From contig KE159578.1 in NCBI GenBank assembly GCA_000403255.2, forward strand, positions 1 through 44,845: a stretch of 44,845 bases of DNA. Reading direction: 5' to 3'. Source of the DNA: Lachnospiraceae bacterium 3-1 (lineage in GTDB: Bacteria > Bacillota > Clostridia > Lachnospirales > Lachnospiraceae). A model generated the notes under the pieces. It searched no databases. It was not told the origin of the DNA and saw only the letters and a list, made by a program, of their open reading frames with translations. The position numbers and the translations under genes are program-made. This document shows, one piece after another, positions 17,851 through 25,385 of the stretch. Position 1 is the stretch's first letter, and each line of letters begins with the position of its first letter.

Positions 17851-17907
17851 AACCGCATTTTGATACAATCGACTCCAAGAAAATATGTGAAAAACGCTTG
17901 AAATAAA

Positions 17908-17950
17908 GGCTTTCGGCAGATTCGATAACCTGCCGGGAGCCTTTTCTTTT
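17908..17950 (+). terminator. Intrinsic terminator
   Basis: GGCTTTCGGCAG (17908-17919) pairs with CTGCCGGGAGCC (17930-17941), 12 bp with two G-U pairs, then TTTTCTTTTT. Confidence 0.85.
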
Positions 17951-17984
17951 TATGTTCTGAAACAGTGCTCCGTTCTTAAAATGT

Positions 17985-18018
17985 AATTTGAACCCCTTCA
18001 ACCAATTTGAACCCCCTC
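17985..18018 (+). repeat. Two direct repeats AATTTGAACCCCYTC
   Basis: AATTTGAACCCCTTC (17985-17999) and AATTTGAACCCCCTC (18004-18018) lie 19 bp apart. Such multiple short terminal repeats are seen at ends of IS21-like elements, but no istA/istB is adjacent, so this may be an IS scar. Confidence 0.4.
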
Positions 18019-18087
18019 GCAAGGCAAAACAAAAAAGTTTAAAAAGGTTATTTTTCCTTATTAAGAAACAGAAACCTGCTAAGTAAT

Positions 18088-19398
18088 CTATTGATAAATC
18101 AGCTTTGTTTTTCTGGTAAGGATAACCGCGATGGCAAATGTAATCATTTCAGCAACGAGCGGGGCTGCCCAGATTGTGTTGCTTCCGAATATAATAGGGA
18201 TACAGAATATGGCGATAGCTTTTATTACGATTCCCCTGCATATGGCAATGATATCCGACTGCTTTGTCCTTTTCGTGGAATAAAGCAGTGAGGTGTAGAC
18301 CAGATTTAAAGCCATGGGAATAAAGGACAGGGCAAAAACCGGCAATGCTTTGGATGCTGCATTTATCAGCTCCATGTCTTGGCTGAAAATGCGGATGGCT
18401 GGTTCATCAAAGAGAATCAGAACTGCAGAAACCAGAACTGACAGCATAAGATTGATTGCCATGCCAAAGCGGAAATAGTCGTTGATTTCTTTTGTATCCT
18501 GTTTTCCATAACTGTTGCCCCAAAGCGGCTGTAATCCCTGTGCCACACCAGAAAGAACTGCATTTGCCAGAGAATAGATAAAACTTAGGACACTGTAGGT
18601 GGATACCCCAATATCGCCTACCAGACCGGCAAGAACCAAATTATAACACAGGGCTGTGACCGGGGTGGTAAGCTGTGTGACAGCTTCGGGAGCGCCGCGT
18701 TTGCAGATCTTCCTGATCAACACAGGCTGTATTGTAAAACGTCGAATTCGGAGATTTCCATGTTTACGGATGAAATGGGACAGCAGAACCAGAAGTGAGA
18801 CAATCTGTCCCAATCCAGAGGCAACAGCAGCCCCAATCACGCCCATCTGAAGCGGGAAAATAAAAAGCCAGTCAAGAAAGATATTGGATACTGCCCCTGC
18901 ACACATACCCACGAAGGATAGGGTAGGGGAACCGTCATTCCGGACAAATACGGAAAGGCAGTTGCTCATCAACATGGGAAGTGAAAATGCGGAATAGTAA
19001 AAAAGATAGTCTGCCGACATTCTGCGCATTTCCTCCCCCAGCTTACGTGCGCCACTTAAATCCACGATGTGCTGTGAAAAAACAGTTCCGACAACTGTCA
19101 GAATAACCGCTGTCAGGACAGTCAGTGTTAAGGCTGTCATGAAAGCATTATTTGCCCCATCCTTGTCATCCCGTCCCATTCTGATGGCAATAATAGTGGC
19201 ACCTCCCATGGGGAACATTGCGACAATGGCTACAGCGAATGTAATGAATGGAACGCCGATATTGACAGCACCTAAAGCGGCTGAACCGACTCCCTGGCCT
19301 ACGAAAATACCATCCATGACATTATACAGATAAGTGACAAACAGGCTTCCTACAGCCGGAAAGATATAGCTGCATAATTGCTTTGCTTTGGGATTCAT
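18088..19398 (-). CDS. MATE family efflux transporter 1
   Basis: A 436-residue polytopic membrane protein with about 12 hydrophobic segments. It starts MNPKAKQLCSYIFPAVGSLF with the MATE hallmarks YNVMDGIFVGQGVGSAALGA and, in the second half, GVAQGLQPLWGNSYG. MATE proteins export drugs or metabolites with Na+ or H+ antiport. The start at 19398 has a strong GGAGG RBS. Its leader is remarkable: a promoter at 19522-19550, a 15-codon leader peptide and an intrinsic terminator stand before the coding region. It belongs to a different subgroup from the MATE gene at 24027. Confidence 0.92.
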   Translation of the reverse strand: MNPKAKQLCSYIFPAVGSLFVTYLYNVMDGIFVGQGVGSAALGAVNIGVPFITFAVAIVAMFPMGGATIIAIRMGRDDKDGANNAFMTALTLTVLTAVILTVVGTVFSQHIVDLSGARKLGEEMRRMSADYLFYYSAFSLPMLMSNCLSVFVRNDGSPTLSFVGMCAGAVSNIFLDWLFIFPLQMGVIGAAVASGLGQIVSLLVLLSHFIRKHGNLRIRRFTIQPVLIRKICKRGAPEAVTQLTTPVTALCYNLVLAGLVGDIGVSTYSVLSFIYSLANAVLSGVAQGLQPLWGNSYGKQDTKEINDYFRFGMAINLMLSVLVSAVLILFDEPAIRIFSQDMELINAASKALPVFALSFIPMALNLVYTSLLYSTKRTKQSDIIAICRGIVIKAIAIFCIPIIFGSNTIWAAPLVAEMITFAIAVILTRKTKLIYQ

Positions 19399-19421
19399 AA
19401 CATAATACCTCCTTTAAATTA

Positions 19422-19460
19422 AAAAAAGTGGGATAAAATCCATTGGATCTTATCCCACTT
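19422..19460 (-). terminator. Leader terminator (attenuator) of MATE 1
   Basis: In the minus-strand transcript AAGTGGGATAA (19460-19450) pairs perfectly with TTATCCCACTT (19436-19426), with a further 4-bp inner stem, and is followed by a run of T. It lies 5' of the MATE ribosome binding site, so it would stop transcription before the gene. The 5' arm contains the leader-peptide stop codon. Confidence 0.82.
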
Positions 19461-19497
19461 CAACAATCATATTGATCGCAAGTCCTCTGACAAGCAT
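19450..19497 (-). CDS. Leader peptide MLVRGLAINMIVEVG
   Basis: A 15-residue ORF with AGGA 9 nt upstream, starting about 17 nt after the predicted transcription start. Its last codons and UAA form the 5' arm of the terminator hairpin, so a ribosome near the end of the leader would prevent hairpin formation. This is the design of translation-dependent attenuation in antibiotic-responsive resistance genes. The peptide itself is not one I recognise. Confidence 0.6.
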   Translation of the reverse strand: MLVRGLAINMIVEVG

Positions 19498-19521
19498 ATA
19501 TTTATATCCTAATAATTTTTT

Positions 19522-19550
19522 ACTCTAACACCTTTTTGTGAAAAAGTCAA
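19522..19550 (-). promoter_or_regulatory. Promoter of the MATE 1 leader
   Basis: On the minus strand TTGACT (19550-19545) and TAGAGT (19527-19522) are spaced by 17 bp. Confidence 0.7.
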
Positions 19551-19590
19551 TACATATTTTTTACGGTATTGAAAAGTTTAACAAAAATGA

Positions 19591-19658
19591 ATTATTGCGT
19601 TTTATACATCAATAATGCGAAACATTCACTTCACTTTTCTGAAAAAGTGTGTTTTAAT
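19591..19658 (+). promoter_or_regulatory. hsp20 promoter with LysR-type dyad
   Basis: The dyad ATTATTG-N12-CAATAAT (19591-19616) stands 13 bp before a promoter TTCACT (19630-19635)-N17-TTTAAT (19653-19658). The dyad, the TTCACTTCACTTT block and the -10 recur at identical spacing in front of groES. The adjacent LysR gene makes it the likely binding protein. Confidence 0.65.
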
Positions 19659-19707
19659 AGCCCTAAAGAAAGCAGAAGGCTTTCAGTTATGAAAGGAGCG
19701 ATGCACT

Positions 19708-20139
19708 ATGTTATTGCCAAGTATTTTCGGAGAAAGTTTGCTGGATGAGTTTTTTGATCATCCGCACCAGAGAACCCATTACCAATCCCACGTGTCCGAG
19801 ATGATGAGGACTGATATTAAAGATTTGGGGAATGCTTATGAAATGACCATGAATCTTCCTGGCATTAAGAAAGAGAATGTAAAGGCAGAGCTGAAAGACG
19901 GATACCTGACAATCAGCGCCTCATCCGCTTCCCAAAATGAAGAGAAGGACAGCGATGGGGTATACATCAGGCGGGAGCGCTATGCTGGTACCTGCAGCAG
20001 GAGTTTCTATGTAGGGGAAGATGTGAAGCAGGAAGACATTAAGGCACGTTTTGAGGATGGCACTTTGAAACTGCAGGTTCCGAAGAACATGAAGGAAGCA
20101 GTCCCTGAAAAATCTAATTATATCGCAATCGAAGGGTGA
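19708..20139 (+). CDS. Hsp20/alpha-crystallin small heat shock protein
   Basis: A 143-residue protein with RBS AAAGGAG. A short N-terminus with FDEFF-like residues (LLDEFFDHPHQ) leads into the alpha-crystallin domain: IKDLGNAYEMTMNLPGIKKE, LKDGYLTISAS, YIRRERYAGTCSRSFYV, and FEDGTLKLQVPK. It is an ATP-independent holdase that binds unfolding proteins in the cytoplasm. It is monocistronic (own promoter and terminator). Its promoter lacks CIRCE but copies the groES upstream region, pointing to co-regulation by LysR. Confidence 0.95.
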   Translation: MLLPSIFGESLLDEFFDHPHQRTHYQSHVSEMMRTDIKDLGNAYEMTMNLPGIKKENVKAELKDGYLTISASSASQNEEKDSDGVYIRRERYAGTCSRSFYVGEDVKQEDIKARFEDGTLKLQVPKNMKEAVPEKSNYIAIEG

Positions 20140-20180
20140 TGGGGCTGTACGCAGATAAACAGACATTTTGTATATCAAAT

Positions 20181-20222
20181 AAAAAGCGATGTGGATGCTT
20201 TCCGGTATCCATATCGCTTTTT
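20181..20222. terminator. Bidirectional terminator between hsp20 and lysR
   Basis: A 16-bp stem, AAAAAGCGATGTGGAT (20181-20196)/ATCCATATCGCTTTTT (20207-20222), has A-run and T-run on opposite sides, so it works for both converging genes. Confidence 0.9.
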
Positions 20223-20232
20223 GTTGTGAAAG

Positions 20233-21111
20233 TTAATGGTAAGATGTATTCGTCACGATAGCAATAAATTTTTTCAGCAAAGGACTTTGTGAACTTTTTT
20301 TATAAAAAAGACCGTAGGATAATGGATCGCTGTTTTTTAGAGGGACTGAACAGATATCCGAATTTATAAAATTCATCTGTGGAAGTACAGAACAGCCATA
20401 CCCTGCCCTGACAAGAGTAAGAAGCACCTGCAGGTTTTCACATACATAAGTGGATTCAGGCAGGATATGCTGTGAAATCTGGTTCTGCATTTCTGCGACT
20501 TTGGCAGGAATGGCATAGGAGTTACAGACAACAATATTCTCCAGATACAATTCCTCTTTTGCAAGCTCAGATCTGGCCGCATAAGGATGCGCGGCGGGGA
20601 CAATACAGCACAGTGGTATCCGGAATAATTCTTTGTAGACCGTATCGTTCTTTATTGGGATATCATCTTGGAATCCAAACAGCAGATCCAGTTCTTCCTG
20701 GTAGAAGAGATTTAAAATGGACCTGTGGGGGATCACTTTCAAAAAGGGATATAGTTCTGGTATCTGCTCCCTGCAGGATTTCAGTATCTTACAGAGCAGA
20801 TCCAGATTAGCCTCACTTTGGCAGCCTATCGTTAAGACCTGCAAATTCGTACTTTGATGGCGCTGTAGTTTCTGTTCCGCAATTTTTAACCTGCCCATAA
20901 CATTTTTCGCATCTTCCAGAAAGCTGATACCGGCGGGGGTAAGGGTAACTGTCCTGGTGGTGCGGTGAAGAAGTTTTGTCCCCAGTTCATCTTCCAGCGA
21001 ATGAATCTGCCGGGAAACGGCAGACTGGGTAATCTTTAAAATTTCAGCGGCTCTTGCAAAGTTCAGGTTTTCGGCAACCTGGATAAAGCTCTTTAACTGG
21101 TCTGTATTCAT
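20233..21111 (-). CDS. LysR family regulator, likely of hsp20 and groESL
   Basis: A 292-residue protein from ATG 21111 (MNTDQLKSFIQVAENLNFAR), preferred over 21126 because GGAGGTGA precedes it. The N-terminal winged HTH contains LKITQSAVSRQIHSLEDELG; the C-terminal half is a periplasmic-binding-type effector domain (GYGCSVLPQMNF). It is divergent from groES; the dyad at 21125-21150 directly abuts its start region, which fits autoregulation plus activation of groES, and a second dyad precedes hsp20. LysR control of a chaperonin operon is unusual. The effector is unknown. Confidence 0.9.
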   Translation of the reverse strand: MNTDQLKSFIQVAENLNFARAAEILKITQSAVSRQIHSLEDELGTKLLHRTTRTVTLTPAGISFLEDAKNVMGRLKIAEQKLQRHQSTNLQVLTIGCQSEANLDLLCKILKSCREQIPELYPFLKVIPHRSILNLFYQEELDLLFGFQDDIPIKNDTVYKELFRIPLCCIVPAAHPYAARSELAKEELYLENIVVCNSYAIPAKVAEMQNQISQHILPESTYVCENLQVLLTLVRAGYGCSVLPQMNFINSDICSVPLKNSDPLSYGLFYKKSSQSPLLKKFIAIVTNTSYH

Positions 21112-21124
21112 GGGTTTCACCTCC

Positions 21125-21192
21125 ATTATTGCGTTTTCGTCATTGATAATACCATATTTTCACTTCACTTTCAAGAGCGGGTGTGGTTTAAT
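21125..21192 (+). promoter_or_regulatory. groES promoter with LysR-type dyad
   Basis: The dyad ATTATTG-N12-TGATAAT (21125-21150, half-sites conserved in the outer five bases) precedes TTCACT (21164-21169)-N17-TTTAAT (21187-21192). Compared with the hsp20 upstream region, the long blocks ATTATTGCGTTTT and TTCACTTCACTTT fall at identical spacing, with no gap needed. Confidence 0.65.
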
Positions 21193-21206
21193 ATGTATTG
21201 CAAAGG

Positions 21207-21233
21207 TTAGCACTCGAAAAACATGAGTGCTAA
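21207..21233 (+). promoter_or_regulatory. CIRCE element (HrcA operator)
   Basis: TTAGCACTC-N9-GAGTGCTAA is a perfect CIRCE inverted repeat between the groES promoter and its start codon. In Firmicutes this is bound by the heat-shock repressor HrcA. The hrcA gene is not in the window. Confidence 0.97.
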
Positions 21234-21260
21234 CAATAAAAAGAAAGGCAGGTAAAAGGA

Positions 21261-21545
21261 ATGAAATTAAGACCATTAGGTGACAGGGTTATTTTACAGT
21301 ATCAGGAAACAGAAGAAAAAACACAGTCAGGCATTATCCTGCCGGACAGTGCAAAGGAAAAACCGCAGGAAGCCGTTGTGGCAGCAGTCGGGGACGGTAA
21401 AGGATACGAAGGAAAGGATGTGCAGATGCAGGTTAAGGAAGGGGATCATGTGATCTTTTCCAAATATGCCGGGACAGAGGTAAAAGTTGAGGAAGAAGAG
21501 TACATTATCGTTTCCCAAAAAGACATTATTGCGGTTGTGGAATAG
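21261..21545 (+). CDS. groES: Co-chaperonin GroES
   Basis: A 94-residue protein of normal length with the Cpn10 signature LRPLGDRVILQYQETEEKT, the mobile-loop segment KTQSGIILPDSAKEKPQ and the C-terminal EYIIVSQKDIIAVVE. It forms the heptameric lid on GroEL and triggers substrate release inside the cavity. It lies downstream of a CIRCE element and 46 nt ahead of groEL, in one operon. Confidence 0.97.
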   Translation: MKLRPLGDRVILQYQETEEKTQSGIILPDSAKEKPQEAVVAAVGDGKGYEGKDVQMQVKEGDHVIFSKYAGTEVKVEEEEYIIVSQKDIIAVVE

Positions 21546-23536: not shown

Positions 23537-23980
23537 ATGGATGGAAAACAGTGTGCCGGTTCTGTTCTGGGGCTGGCCAACCAGATAAAAAGGGTTTTTG
23601 ATACAACGACGGGACGCTGCGGTACGCAGATACGGATTTTAAATTTTGTCCTTGTGTCATACCCGGACAGGGAAATTTACCAGAAGGATATAGAGGAGGA
23701 ACTGAACATAAGAAGTGCGTCTGTTTCCACGCTTTTGAAGAAAATGGAGGCACAGGACTTTATCCGCAGGGAAAAGGTTTCCTATGATGACCGTTTGAAA
23801 AGAATACTGCCAACCAGCCATACAGTGGAGATGAAGGAACAGGTTGAGCGGCATATTACTTTACTGGAAAAAAGACTGACAGCAGGCATCGGGGAAGAAG
23901 AACTAAGGGTTTTCTATGATGTGCTGAAAAAAATGCAGGAAAATATGGATTTAACGGAAAAGGGAGACAGATATGGGTAG
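23537..23980 (+). CDS. MarR family transcriptional regulator
   Basis: A 147-residue winged-helix protein. The HTH region (YQKDIEEELNIRSASVSTLL) and the wing (FIRREKVSYDDRLKRILPT) carry the MarR hallmark DxRxK/R-like DDRLKR. It starts 3 nt after the HPr-like gene. MarR proteins usually repress drug-exporter operons and release on ligand binding; directly downstream are a MATE exporter and an ABC exporter, so these are the obvious targets. No operator could be identified by eye. Confidence 0.92.
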   Translation: MDGKQCAGSVLGLANQIKRVFDTTTGRCGTQIRILNFVLVSYPDREIYQKDIEEELNIRSASVSTLLKKMEAQDFIRREKVSYDDRLKRILPTSHTVEMKEQVERHITLLEKRLTAGIGEEELRVFYDVLKKMQENMDLTEKGDRYG

Positions 23981-24026
23981 GATTTTGTTCTTATATTCAT
24001 CATGTGTTTTGAGTTAGGAGGTAAAA

Positions 24027-25385
24027 ATGGATACAACAGTAACAAAAACAAATCCACTTGGTACGGAACGTATTGGAAAACTGGTACTTACATTTGCTGT
24101 TCCAAGTATCATTTCTATGGTGGTCAACGCCTTATATAACATTGTTGACCAGATTTTTATCGGGCAGGGGGTAGGGTATCTTGGCAATGGAGCGACTAAT
24201 GTTGTCATGCCGATGACTGTGATTGCCATTGCTTTAAGCCTGCTGATCGGCGATGGAGCTGCGGCATACTTAAGTCTGAAGCTCGGTGAGGGTGATGAAA
24301 AATCAGCAGCCAGCGGCATAGGATGTTCCATTTCGGTTATGGCAGTCGCTGGCATTGTTCTCTGTATACTGTTTAACTTGTTTCTGGAACCTTTATGCAG
24401 GCTGTTTGGTGCAACAGAAGATATCCTGCCTTATGCGATGGATTATGGACGGATTATTTCTTATGGAATCCTGTTTTCTTCCATTGATTCCGGCATGGCG
24501 GGCATGATCCGTGCGGACGGCAGCCCGAAATACAGTATGGCAGGGCTTCTTGTGGGCTGTATTACCAATATTATCCTTGACCCGATTTTTATTTTTGGGT
24601 TCCATTGGGGTGTAAAAGGAGCCGCCTGGGCAACAATCGCCGGGCAGATATTGAATGCTTTTCTGTACCTTGCTTACATTTGGAAATTTAAGAGCATTAA
24701 GCTGGATAAGAAGTGCTTCCGCATTTCAGGGAAAGTGATAGCGAAAGTCAGCGGTCTTGGCATATCCAGTTTTATCACGCAGATCGCCATCGTGCTGGTC
24801 ATGGCGGTTACCAATAACATACTGGTATCTTACGGCGCACAGTCGAAATATGGTGCGGAAATTCCCCTGACGACCATAGGCATTACCATGAAAGTGAACC
24901 AGATCGTTTCTGCTGTCCTTCTTGGACTGGCAACAGGTGCGCAGCCTATATGGGGCTACAATTATGGCAGTGGTCAGAAGGACAGGGTAAAGCAGGCATA
25001 CCGTATTATATTGACTGCATCGACAATCATGTTGATCCTGGCATTTTTGGTGTTCCAGTTTGCCCCGATGAGTATTGTCCGGCTCTTTGGTTCAGAATCA
25101 GAACTGTACAATGAGTTTGCGGTGAAATGTTTCCGCATTTTCCTTCTGGCGTGTCCGATCAACGGGCTGCAGATGGCAACAGGCATTTTCTTCCAAGCTA
25201 TCGGAAAACCGACACAGGCAACCATCCTTTCCCTGTCCCGTCAGATTGTTTATTTGCTCCCGGCGACCTTATTGCTGCCGCTGGTATTAGGGGTGGAAGG
25301 TGCATTATGGGCAGGTCCGCTGGCAGATGTGCTGGCGTTTATAACAACTTTGGTTATGTTGAAATTATATTGGAAAAAAATTTAG
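24027..25385 (+). CDS. MATE family efflux transporter 2
   Basis: A 452-residue membrane protein of normal MATE length with RBS TTAGGAGG. Typical segments are YNIVDQIFIGQGVGYLGNGA near the N-terminus and LGLATGAQPIWGYNYGSGQ in the second half, together with about 12 hydrophobic helices. It exports cationic drugs or metabolites by ion antiport. It lies between marR and a kinase-like gene in a tight run, so it is likely under MarR control. It is clearly diverged from the MATE protein at 18088. Confidence 0.93.
   Translation: MDTTVTKTNPLGTERIGKLVLTFAVPSIISMVVNALYNIVDQIFIGQGVGYLGNGATNVVMPMTVIAIALSLLIGDGAAAYLSLKLGEGDEKSAASGIGCSISVMAVAGIVLCILFNLFLEPLCRLFGATEDILPYAMDYGRIISYGILFSSIDSGMAGMIRADGSPKYSMAGLLVGCITNIILDPIFIFGFHWGVKGAAWATIAGQILNAFLYLAYIWKFKSIKLDKKCFRISGKVIAKVSGLGISSFITQIAIVLVMAVTNNILVSYGAQSKYGAEIPLTTIGITMKVNQIVSAVLLGLATGAQPIWGYNYGSGQKDRVKQAYRIILTASTIMLILAFLVFQFAPMSIVRLFGSESELYNEFAVKCFRIFLLACPINGLQMATGIFFQAIGKPTQATILSLSRQIVYLLPATLLLPLVLGVEGALWAGPLADVLAFITTLVMLKLYWKKI

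Follow-up and report, generated by a model that had tools for sequence, protein, structure and literature searches.

A conserved 46-nt RNA upstream of a MATE exporter gene: a probable ON riboswitch acting at transcription termination

RESULTS

Organization of the region 5′ of the MATE gene

The window analyzed here, a 44,845-nt stretch of contig KE159578.1 from Lachnospiraceae bacterium 3-1, encodes a MATE family efflux transporter of 436 amino acids on its minus strand (18088 to 19398, start at 19398). The protein scores above the cut-off for TIGR00797 and matches PF01554; its closest solved chain is 4lz6, BH2163. Between 19550 and 19398, all on the same strand, lie a promoter-like site, a short open reading frame, a strong terminator and the ribosome binding site that leads into the MATE gene. 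The promoter-like site, TTGACT-N17-TAGAGT, was assigned from the sequence at 19522 to 19550 (TTGACT at 19550 to 19545, TAGAGT at 19527 to 19522). It is followed by a 15-codon ATG...TAA ORF (MLVRGLAINMIVEVG, 19450 to 19497) with a weak AGGA on its 5′ side, by an intrinsic terminator stem-loop of 17 pairs with a T-rich tail (19425 to 19461), and by the AGGAGG of the MATE gene, identified by eye (19408 to 19413). A first-pass annotation had already picked out these pieces and had noted that the end of the ORF, UAA included, falls within the 5′ arm of the terminator; the window sequence bears this out.

By count, neither kind of site is commoner than chance in the surrounding region (17900 to 21300), with 7 promoter-like sites against a shuffle mean of 6.3 and 3 terminator-like sites against a mean of 3.4. 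The stem in the MATE leader has 17 pairs, however, against 7 in each of the other two nearby sites, and the 152-nt region folds with z = −5.1 (0 of 200 shuffles were equally stable). We judge the terminator and the sensor described below to be above chance because they are conserved in homologues.

A nearly invariant core

Most of the closer homologous loci share a nearly invariant 46-nt RNA, CUUGUC-AGAGG-ACUUGCAAUC-n-GAUUGU-UN-AAGU-GG-GAUAAG, that runs into the terminator. Alignment and folding define its parts on the minus strand of the window. CUUGUC (19489 to 19494) is the 5′ strand of a helix, P1, and pairs with GAUAAG (19449 to 19454). A joining strand, AGAGG (19484 to 19488), leads into a hairpin, P2 (19457 to 19483), built from ACUU/AAGU (P2a) and GCGAUC/GAUUGU (P2b) with a two-base bulge, U-N, on its 3′ side. 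GAUAAG is common to P1 and the terminator: it can serve either as the 3′ strand of P1, the antiterminator, or as part of the terminator 5′ arm. In an alignment of 29 elements (A1), the invariant or nearly invariant columns are CUUGUC, AGAGG, ACUUG, UU-N-AAGU, GG and GAUAAG, and both hairpin loops are variable. AGAGG is unchanged in all 29 rows and reads GAAGG in a weak relative, L137.

Core and gene were compared between the window and 20 relatives. In 15 of these, with 61 to 75% protein identity, the core is 74 to 94% identical (87 to 94% in 14, 74% in L037), and the fourfold-degenerate sites are 23 to 41% identical. The other five, at 84 to 96% protein identity, have 59 to 93% identity at fourfold sites and 93 to 98% in the core. 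What is under constraint, by this comparison, is the leader's nucleotide sequence.

The 15-codon ORF is not conserved

The first-pass annotation had proposed translation-dependent attenuation, with the 5′ arm of the terminator hidden by a ribosome that has read through to the end of the 15 codons. Antibiotic-resistance attenuators of the ermK, msrD and bmrCD type operate through leader peptides, and our locus resembles them: a resistance or exporter gene lies behind a terminator that gives way to an alternative fold. The ORF was examined in the 44 elements that carry TCAGAGGACTTG exactly, of which 29 are distinct (L131, L135 and L137 were left out). The proposal can draw on an ATG or GTG before CTTGTC, in frame with TAA, in the window and in L004, L007, L009, L010 and L012, and on an in-frame start of one kind or another, 5 or more codons ahead of the stop, in 22 of the 29 distinct copies (ATG in 14). 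Yet a start directly 5′ of CTTGTC (ATG, GTG or TTG) in frame with TAA is present in only 9 of the 29, with ATG in 4, and 7 copies have no in-frame start at all. The alternative starts lie at differing places, several of them inside the promoter or coinciding with TTGs of the invariant core. The leader frame, whose conservation in homologues the annotation had itself made decisive, is not kept: from CTTGTC to the stop, frames 0, 1 and 2 occur in 14, 12 and 3 of the 29 copies, altered by indels in the loops.

The placement of the predicted promoter also tells against such a peptide. From the end of the −10 box to CTTGTC there are 7 to 8 nt in 22 of the 29 copies, and an RBS therefore has no space in these; the distance is 9 nt in one copy, 11 nt in three and 19 nt in one. 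The window and L007 are the two copies with 27 nt, and there an RBS has room. The −10 boxes were chosen by best score (the weakest, in L030, scored 8 of 12), and transcription starts are predicted, not mapped, using the usual distance from −10 box to start. With the box so close, most predicted transcripts would begin at about the first pairing strand. Conservation of the stop codon reflects the pairing role of GAUAAG; L037 has UGA as its stop.

What is conserved, then, follows the RNA sequence and its helices, and not the start, the frame or the room for an RBS, which also sets these leaders apart from attenuators of the ermK, msrD and bmrCD type. We rejected the leader peptide as the agent, regard it as refuted computationally, and give translation-dependent attenuation next to no credence; the ORF in the window is judged incidental. 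What stands of the earlier proposal is that the MATE exporter gene is preceded by a transcriptional attenuator whose terminator 5′ arm another structure can mask. The case illustrates how an accidental ORF lying across an RNA sensor can be mistaken for a leader peptide.

Sensor and terminator compete for the same strand

Covariation in the sensor was assessed on 28 distinct rows of A1 against 500 shuffles, which ignore relatedness. P1 (CUUGUC/GAUAAG) and P2 (ACUUGCAAUC/GAUUGU-UN-AAGU) are paired in 99.1% of cells, falling to 36 to 51% when the partners are slid by 1 to 3 columns. Six of the 16 pairs, in 11 cells, have changed on both sides, and 0 of 500 shuffles reach these values or the covariation score. 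Five of the six pairs with two-sided changes are in P2 and one is in P1. Within P2, P2a never varies in A1, and P2b covaries. The six pairs of P1 are formed in 100% of cells, with one two-sided change (UA to CG in L037) and one one-sided change (L028). The terminator together with P2b is 95.3% paired. Two-sided changes are found there in 28 cells, the terminator accounting for 18 of these, and no shuffle among 500 does as well. A wider alignment that adds L133, L135 and L137 is 97.7% paired, with 6 pairs and 11 cells changed two-sidedly. Further pair types were not clearly above shuffles, which equaled them in 41 of 500 cases for the sensor, 259 of 500 for the terminator plus P2b, and 30 of 500 for the wider alignment.

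Folded alone, every one of the 29 copies of the core has a minimum-energy structure with all six pairs of P1 and all four of P2a. With 32 further bases, which supply the terminator 3′ arm, P1 is lost in all 29; the mean energy is then −31.1 kcal/mol, compared with −16.7 kcal/mol when P1 is enforced, a cost of about 14 kcal/mol. Four relatives added later were also folded; L134 and L135 form P1, and L131 and L137 do not. In these folding models, the P1/P2 sensor is mutually exclusive with the intrinsic terminator. The layout is that of an ON switch, with the sensor coming first and having to be held if the terminator is to be blocked.

A sequence pattern also points to a second strong hairpin with terminator-like arms, between the terminator and the RBS, in 12 of 38 loci (L016, L017, L020 to L025, L038, L048, L054 and L058).

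Homologous loci and associated genes

The MATE protein is rare among 99 relatives, with 3 genomes, its own included, matching at 1e-60. We report on the best 80 of 342 loci encoding relatives of the protein in a one-genome-per-species collection, scoring the element within 700 nt upstream of the gene. It is present on the same strand before MATE in 38 of the 80 loci and on the opposite strand, pointing away from MATE, in three (L040, L043 and L056). Within the 700 nt it was absent from 27 loci of 37 to 44% identity, from 6 of 55 to 63%, and from L036 (65%), L049, L050 and L086; for the last three, the true upstream DNA may lie outside the view, since the match starts only at residue 80 or later. 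L035 and L063 contain too little upstream DNA for the count. A covariance search with model R1 found no missed copies in 40 pattern-less loci (39 of the 80, plus L003; best E value, 0.81).

The genome of the window holds two copies of the element, the one described above and one on another contig (L005, G000:C22:8697-11069), where the accompanying MATE protein is 92% identical. A 172-aa ORF, which we take to be an IS200-type transposase, sits there between the terminator and the MATE RBS. The element is also kept before damaged MATE genes, split in pieces in L091 and reduced to a remnant in L095.

Apart from MATE, whose cluster spans 43 loci, no gene family within 4.5 kb is retained at almost every locus. 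Next in size come ORFs that, judged by position, run antisense to MATE, and a LysR-type gene present in 16 loci. No conserved linked regulator is therefore seen. This bears on protein-dependent antitermination, in which a widespread RNA-binding protein would stabilize P1/P2 with no small molecule involved. The architecture would fit a protein-bound antiterminator equally well, but no conserved gene for such a protein is seen within 4.5 kb and, given that the carrier records include ones titled Lachnospiraceae, Oscillospiraceae, Acutalibacter and Treponema, it would itself need a very wide spread. We regard it as unlikely.

The loci with the element on the opposite strand suggest a different placement of the same switch. 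In L040 and L043, a MerR-type ORF of 272 to 284 aa, divergent from MATE, lies 130 to 165 nt downstream of the element (PF13411 in L040); in L056 the contig ends before any gene behind the element. Of nine loci examined, seven (L040, L042, L043, L044, L046, L053 and L056) have a MATE promoter of the form TTGACT-N19-TATACT; L036 has TTGACT without TATACT, and L039 has neither. Promoters activated by MerR typically have a spacer of this length, 19 nt. L042, L044 and L046 carry a divergent MerR homologue (62 to 66% identity) without the element. These layouts place the RNA on the pump or, in two cases, on the presumed regulator of the pump.

Other gene contexts are few. In L135, from a Treponema-family genome, the element has an intact fold and precedes a different MATE gene, of 22% identity, in what looks like a separate association. 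One further reading of the locus is that of a constitutive terminator or RNA-stability element responding to no signal. A strong terminator by itself also lowers expression; it would have no need, however, for a 5′ strand kept almost unchanged and complementary to its own arm, nor any reason to recur before merR-type genes and a distant MATE gene, and we hold this reading to be extremely improbable.

In L133, the start of a GNAT gene lies about 220 nt beyond that of the core and roughly 150 nt past the terminator, a tentative association. In L134 (1500 to 1897), an element without a terminator is closely preceded by a distant MATE gene and followed by yjdF (DUF2992). L137 (1500 to 1575), the diverged relative with GAAGG in place of AGAGG, has an intact terminator and precedes a nucleoside hydrolase gene; it scores 49.7 bits, or 61.6 bits with model R2, which includes L137. 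It is possibly a variant with another ligand; since it does not fold into P1, we offer it as a lead only. The GNAT, yjdF and nucleoside hydrolase contexts occur once each and are weak. L131, with no P1 fold, and L134, a core without a terminator, were treated as remnants.

Distribution of the element

Searches with model R1 in the family of the window's genome returned 9 of 397 genomes, its own included and one a false match; two of the real ones are L091 and L095. L097 (30.5 bits with R1) appears to have only a terminator-type hairpin and was discounted. The class draw gave 1 of 391 genomes and the phylum draw, run with the exact pattern, 1 of 398, in each case its own; the pattern would miss variants such as L034 and L135. 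Fifty of the 80 loci led to 49 genomes that were searched (L020 was left out), of which 39 matched. That search added one diverged copy, L131, and its rows near E values of 0.02 to 0.05 overlapped known copies on the other strand. The families of G1243, G1247 (the Treponema genome) and G1251 gave 5 of 250, 2 of 118 and 2 of 200 genomes, respectively; with model R2, no copies were found beyond the center genome in sets of 48 and 47 relatives. The counts in the large draws are lower bounds, because filters were stricter and only part of the first-look candidates were scored. Viral contigs and plasmids yielded no relative; nor did phages, where the one resemblance, 35 bases long and to the terminator, came from a single phage represented by two records (E value, 0.6). 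The element is thus rare and patchy and crosses families, as would be expected for a pump that moves with its switch.

Comparison with known RNA classes

Rfam 15 has no match at the place of the element in the window. A relaxed scan returned 14 low-scoring matches, each well short of its gathering score; the best, to caiA, reached 24.0 bits against a threshold of 55.5 and covers the terminator and RBS part. Among homologues, L131, L133 and L134 were scanned. In L134, an azaaromatic (yjdF) riboswitch (RF01764) lies about 220 nt downstream of the terminator-less copy of the element; it has a different structure and no match in the window.

The closest parallels in function are the guanidine-IV RNAs and the Gd4v motif. 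In the excerpted accounts, guanidine-IV (GGAM-1, the mepA motif) is an ON switch that works by antitermination, often before MATE or MepA-like genes and in several phyla (PMC7736828, PMC12186494, PMC11611296). Its aptamer is described there as a pair of far-apart loops linked through a pseudoknot, and the loop of the terminator hairpin carries conserved nucleotides (PMC7736828, PMC12186494). Gd4v, according to the excerpt of its report, is enriched in mammalian guts, is linked to terminators, and occurs before MATE and GNAT genes and most often before a transaminase gene; it shares the two-hairpin pseudoknot plan of guanidine-IV and adds an extra hairpin on the terminator (PMC9788692).

Our element, like both, precedes a MATE gene, is tied to a terminator and follows an ON logic; Gd4v's enrichment in mammalian guts adds to the resemblance. 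It differs from these excerpted descriptions in architecture. The conserved hairpin-loop nucleotides described for both classes have no counterpart here, the loop columns of A1 being variable. Its invariant bases lie instead in the P1/P2 internal loop, and the P1 strand is itself the antiterminator. Guanidine-IV therefore fails as a candidate on the architecture given in those portions of the papers, and membership in, or variation on, guanidine-IV or Gd4v seems very unlikely to us.

Among open-licence PMC papers, those that came up for the letters of the core were unrelated by title. As to a link with MATE, multidrug efflux or exporters, nothing relevant appears in PMC11109978, PMC8632094 or PMC6429828, and nothing relevant appears in the excerpted part of PMC10043782. 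The element is likely absent from print, as judged by the main texts of open-licence PMC papers.

DISCUSSION

The RNA upstream of the MATE gene is real, conserved and switch-like, with its helices, its exclusive folds and its gene association all computed here. We consider it likely that it represents an unreported class of ON riboswitch that turns on the MATE gene through control of termination, presumably in response to a small molecule that is itself a toxic compound.

We propose a cis-acting switch in which the 46-nt sensor and the terminator together set MATE expression at transcription termination. The nascent transcript would fold P1 and P2 first. Without a signal, the growing 3′ arm of the terminator would strip GAUAAG from P1, and RNA polymerase would stop. 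A ligand seated in the internal loop that joins the two helices would keep P1 closed, and no terminator would form. Transcription would then continue into the MATE gene or, in certain Blautia relatives, into the merR-type gene divergent from it. The presumed trigger is a toxic small molecule, akin to the cargo of the pump and bound directly by the RNA, and the pocket would consist of AGAGG, the GG at 19455 to 19456 and the bulged U at 19462.

With rather less confidence, we lean toward a fuller picture. Here the 46-nt aptamer would define an undescribed class, found mostly in gut bacteria, that binds a toxin exported by the MATE protein, be it a drug, a dietary compound or a microbial product. 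It would travel with its pump among hosts of Lachnospiraceae, Oscillospiraceae and Treponema type; certain Blautia relatives would instead have it above a MerR-type regulator. The riboswitch reading is tempered by the thin covariation in P1, by the lack of variation in P2a, by the failure of L131 and L137 to form P1, by the rarity of the element and its occurrence mostly with one MATE clade, and by its absence from L036 and from the six loci of 55 to 63% identity.

If the element is a riboswitch, it would be a new and very small natural aptamer and would provide a handle on MATE export, the ligand probably being a substrate of the pump or a close relative of one. Being so short, the sensor lends itself to immediate screening with compound pools, and any ligand could be checked internally by comparing the two layouts, with the RNA on the pump or on the adjoining MerR-type gene.

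Elsewhere in the window, all on the plus strand, a Group II intron (RF00029, 5412 to 5508) and a pemK RNA motif (RF02913, 14629 to 14680) score above their gathering thresholds, and an ORF that appears by eye to be MarR-like is followed by a second, different MATE gene (24027 to 25385, in the region 23537 to 25385).
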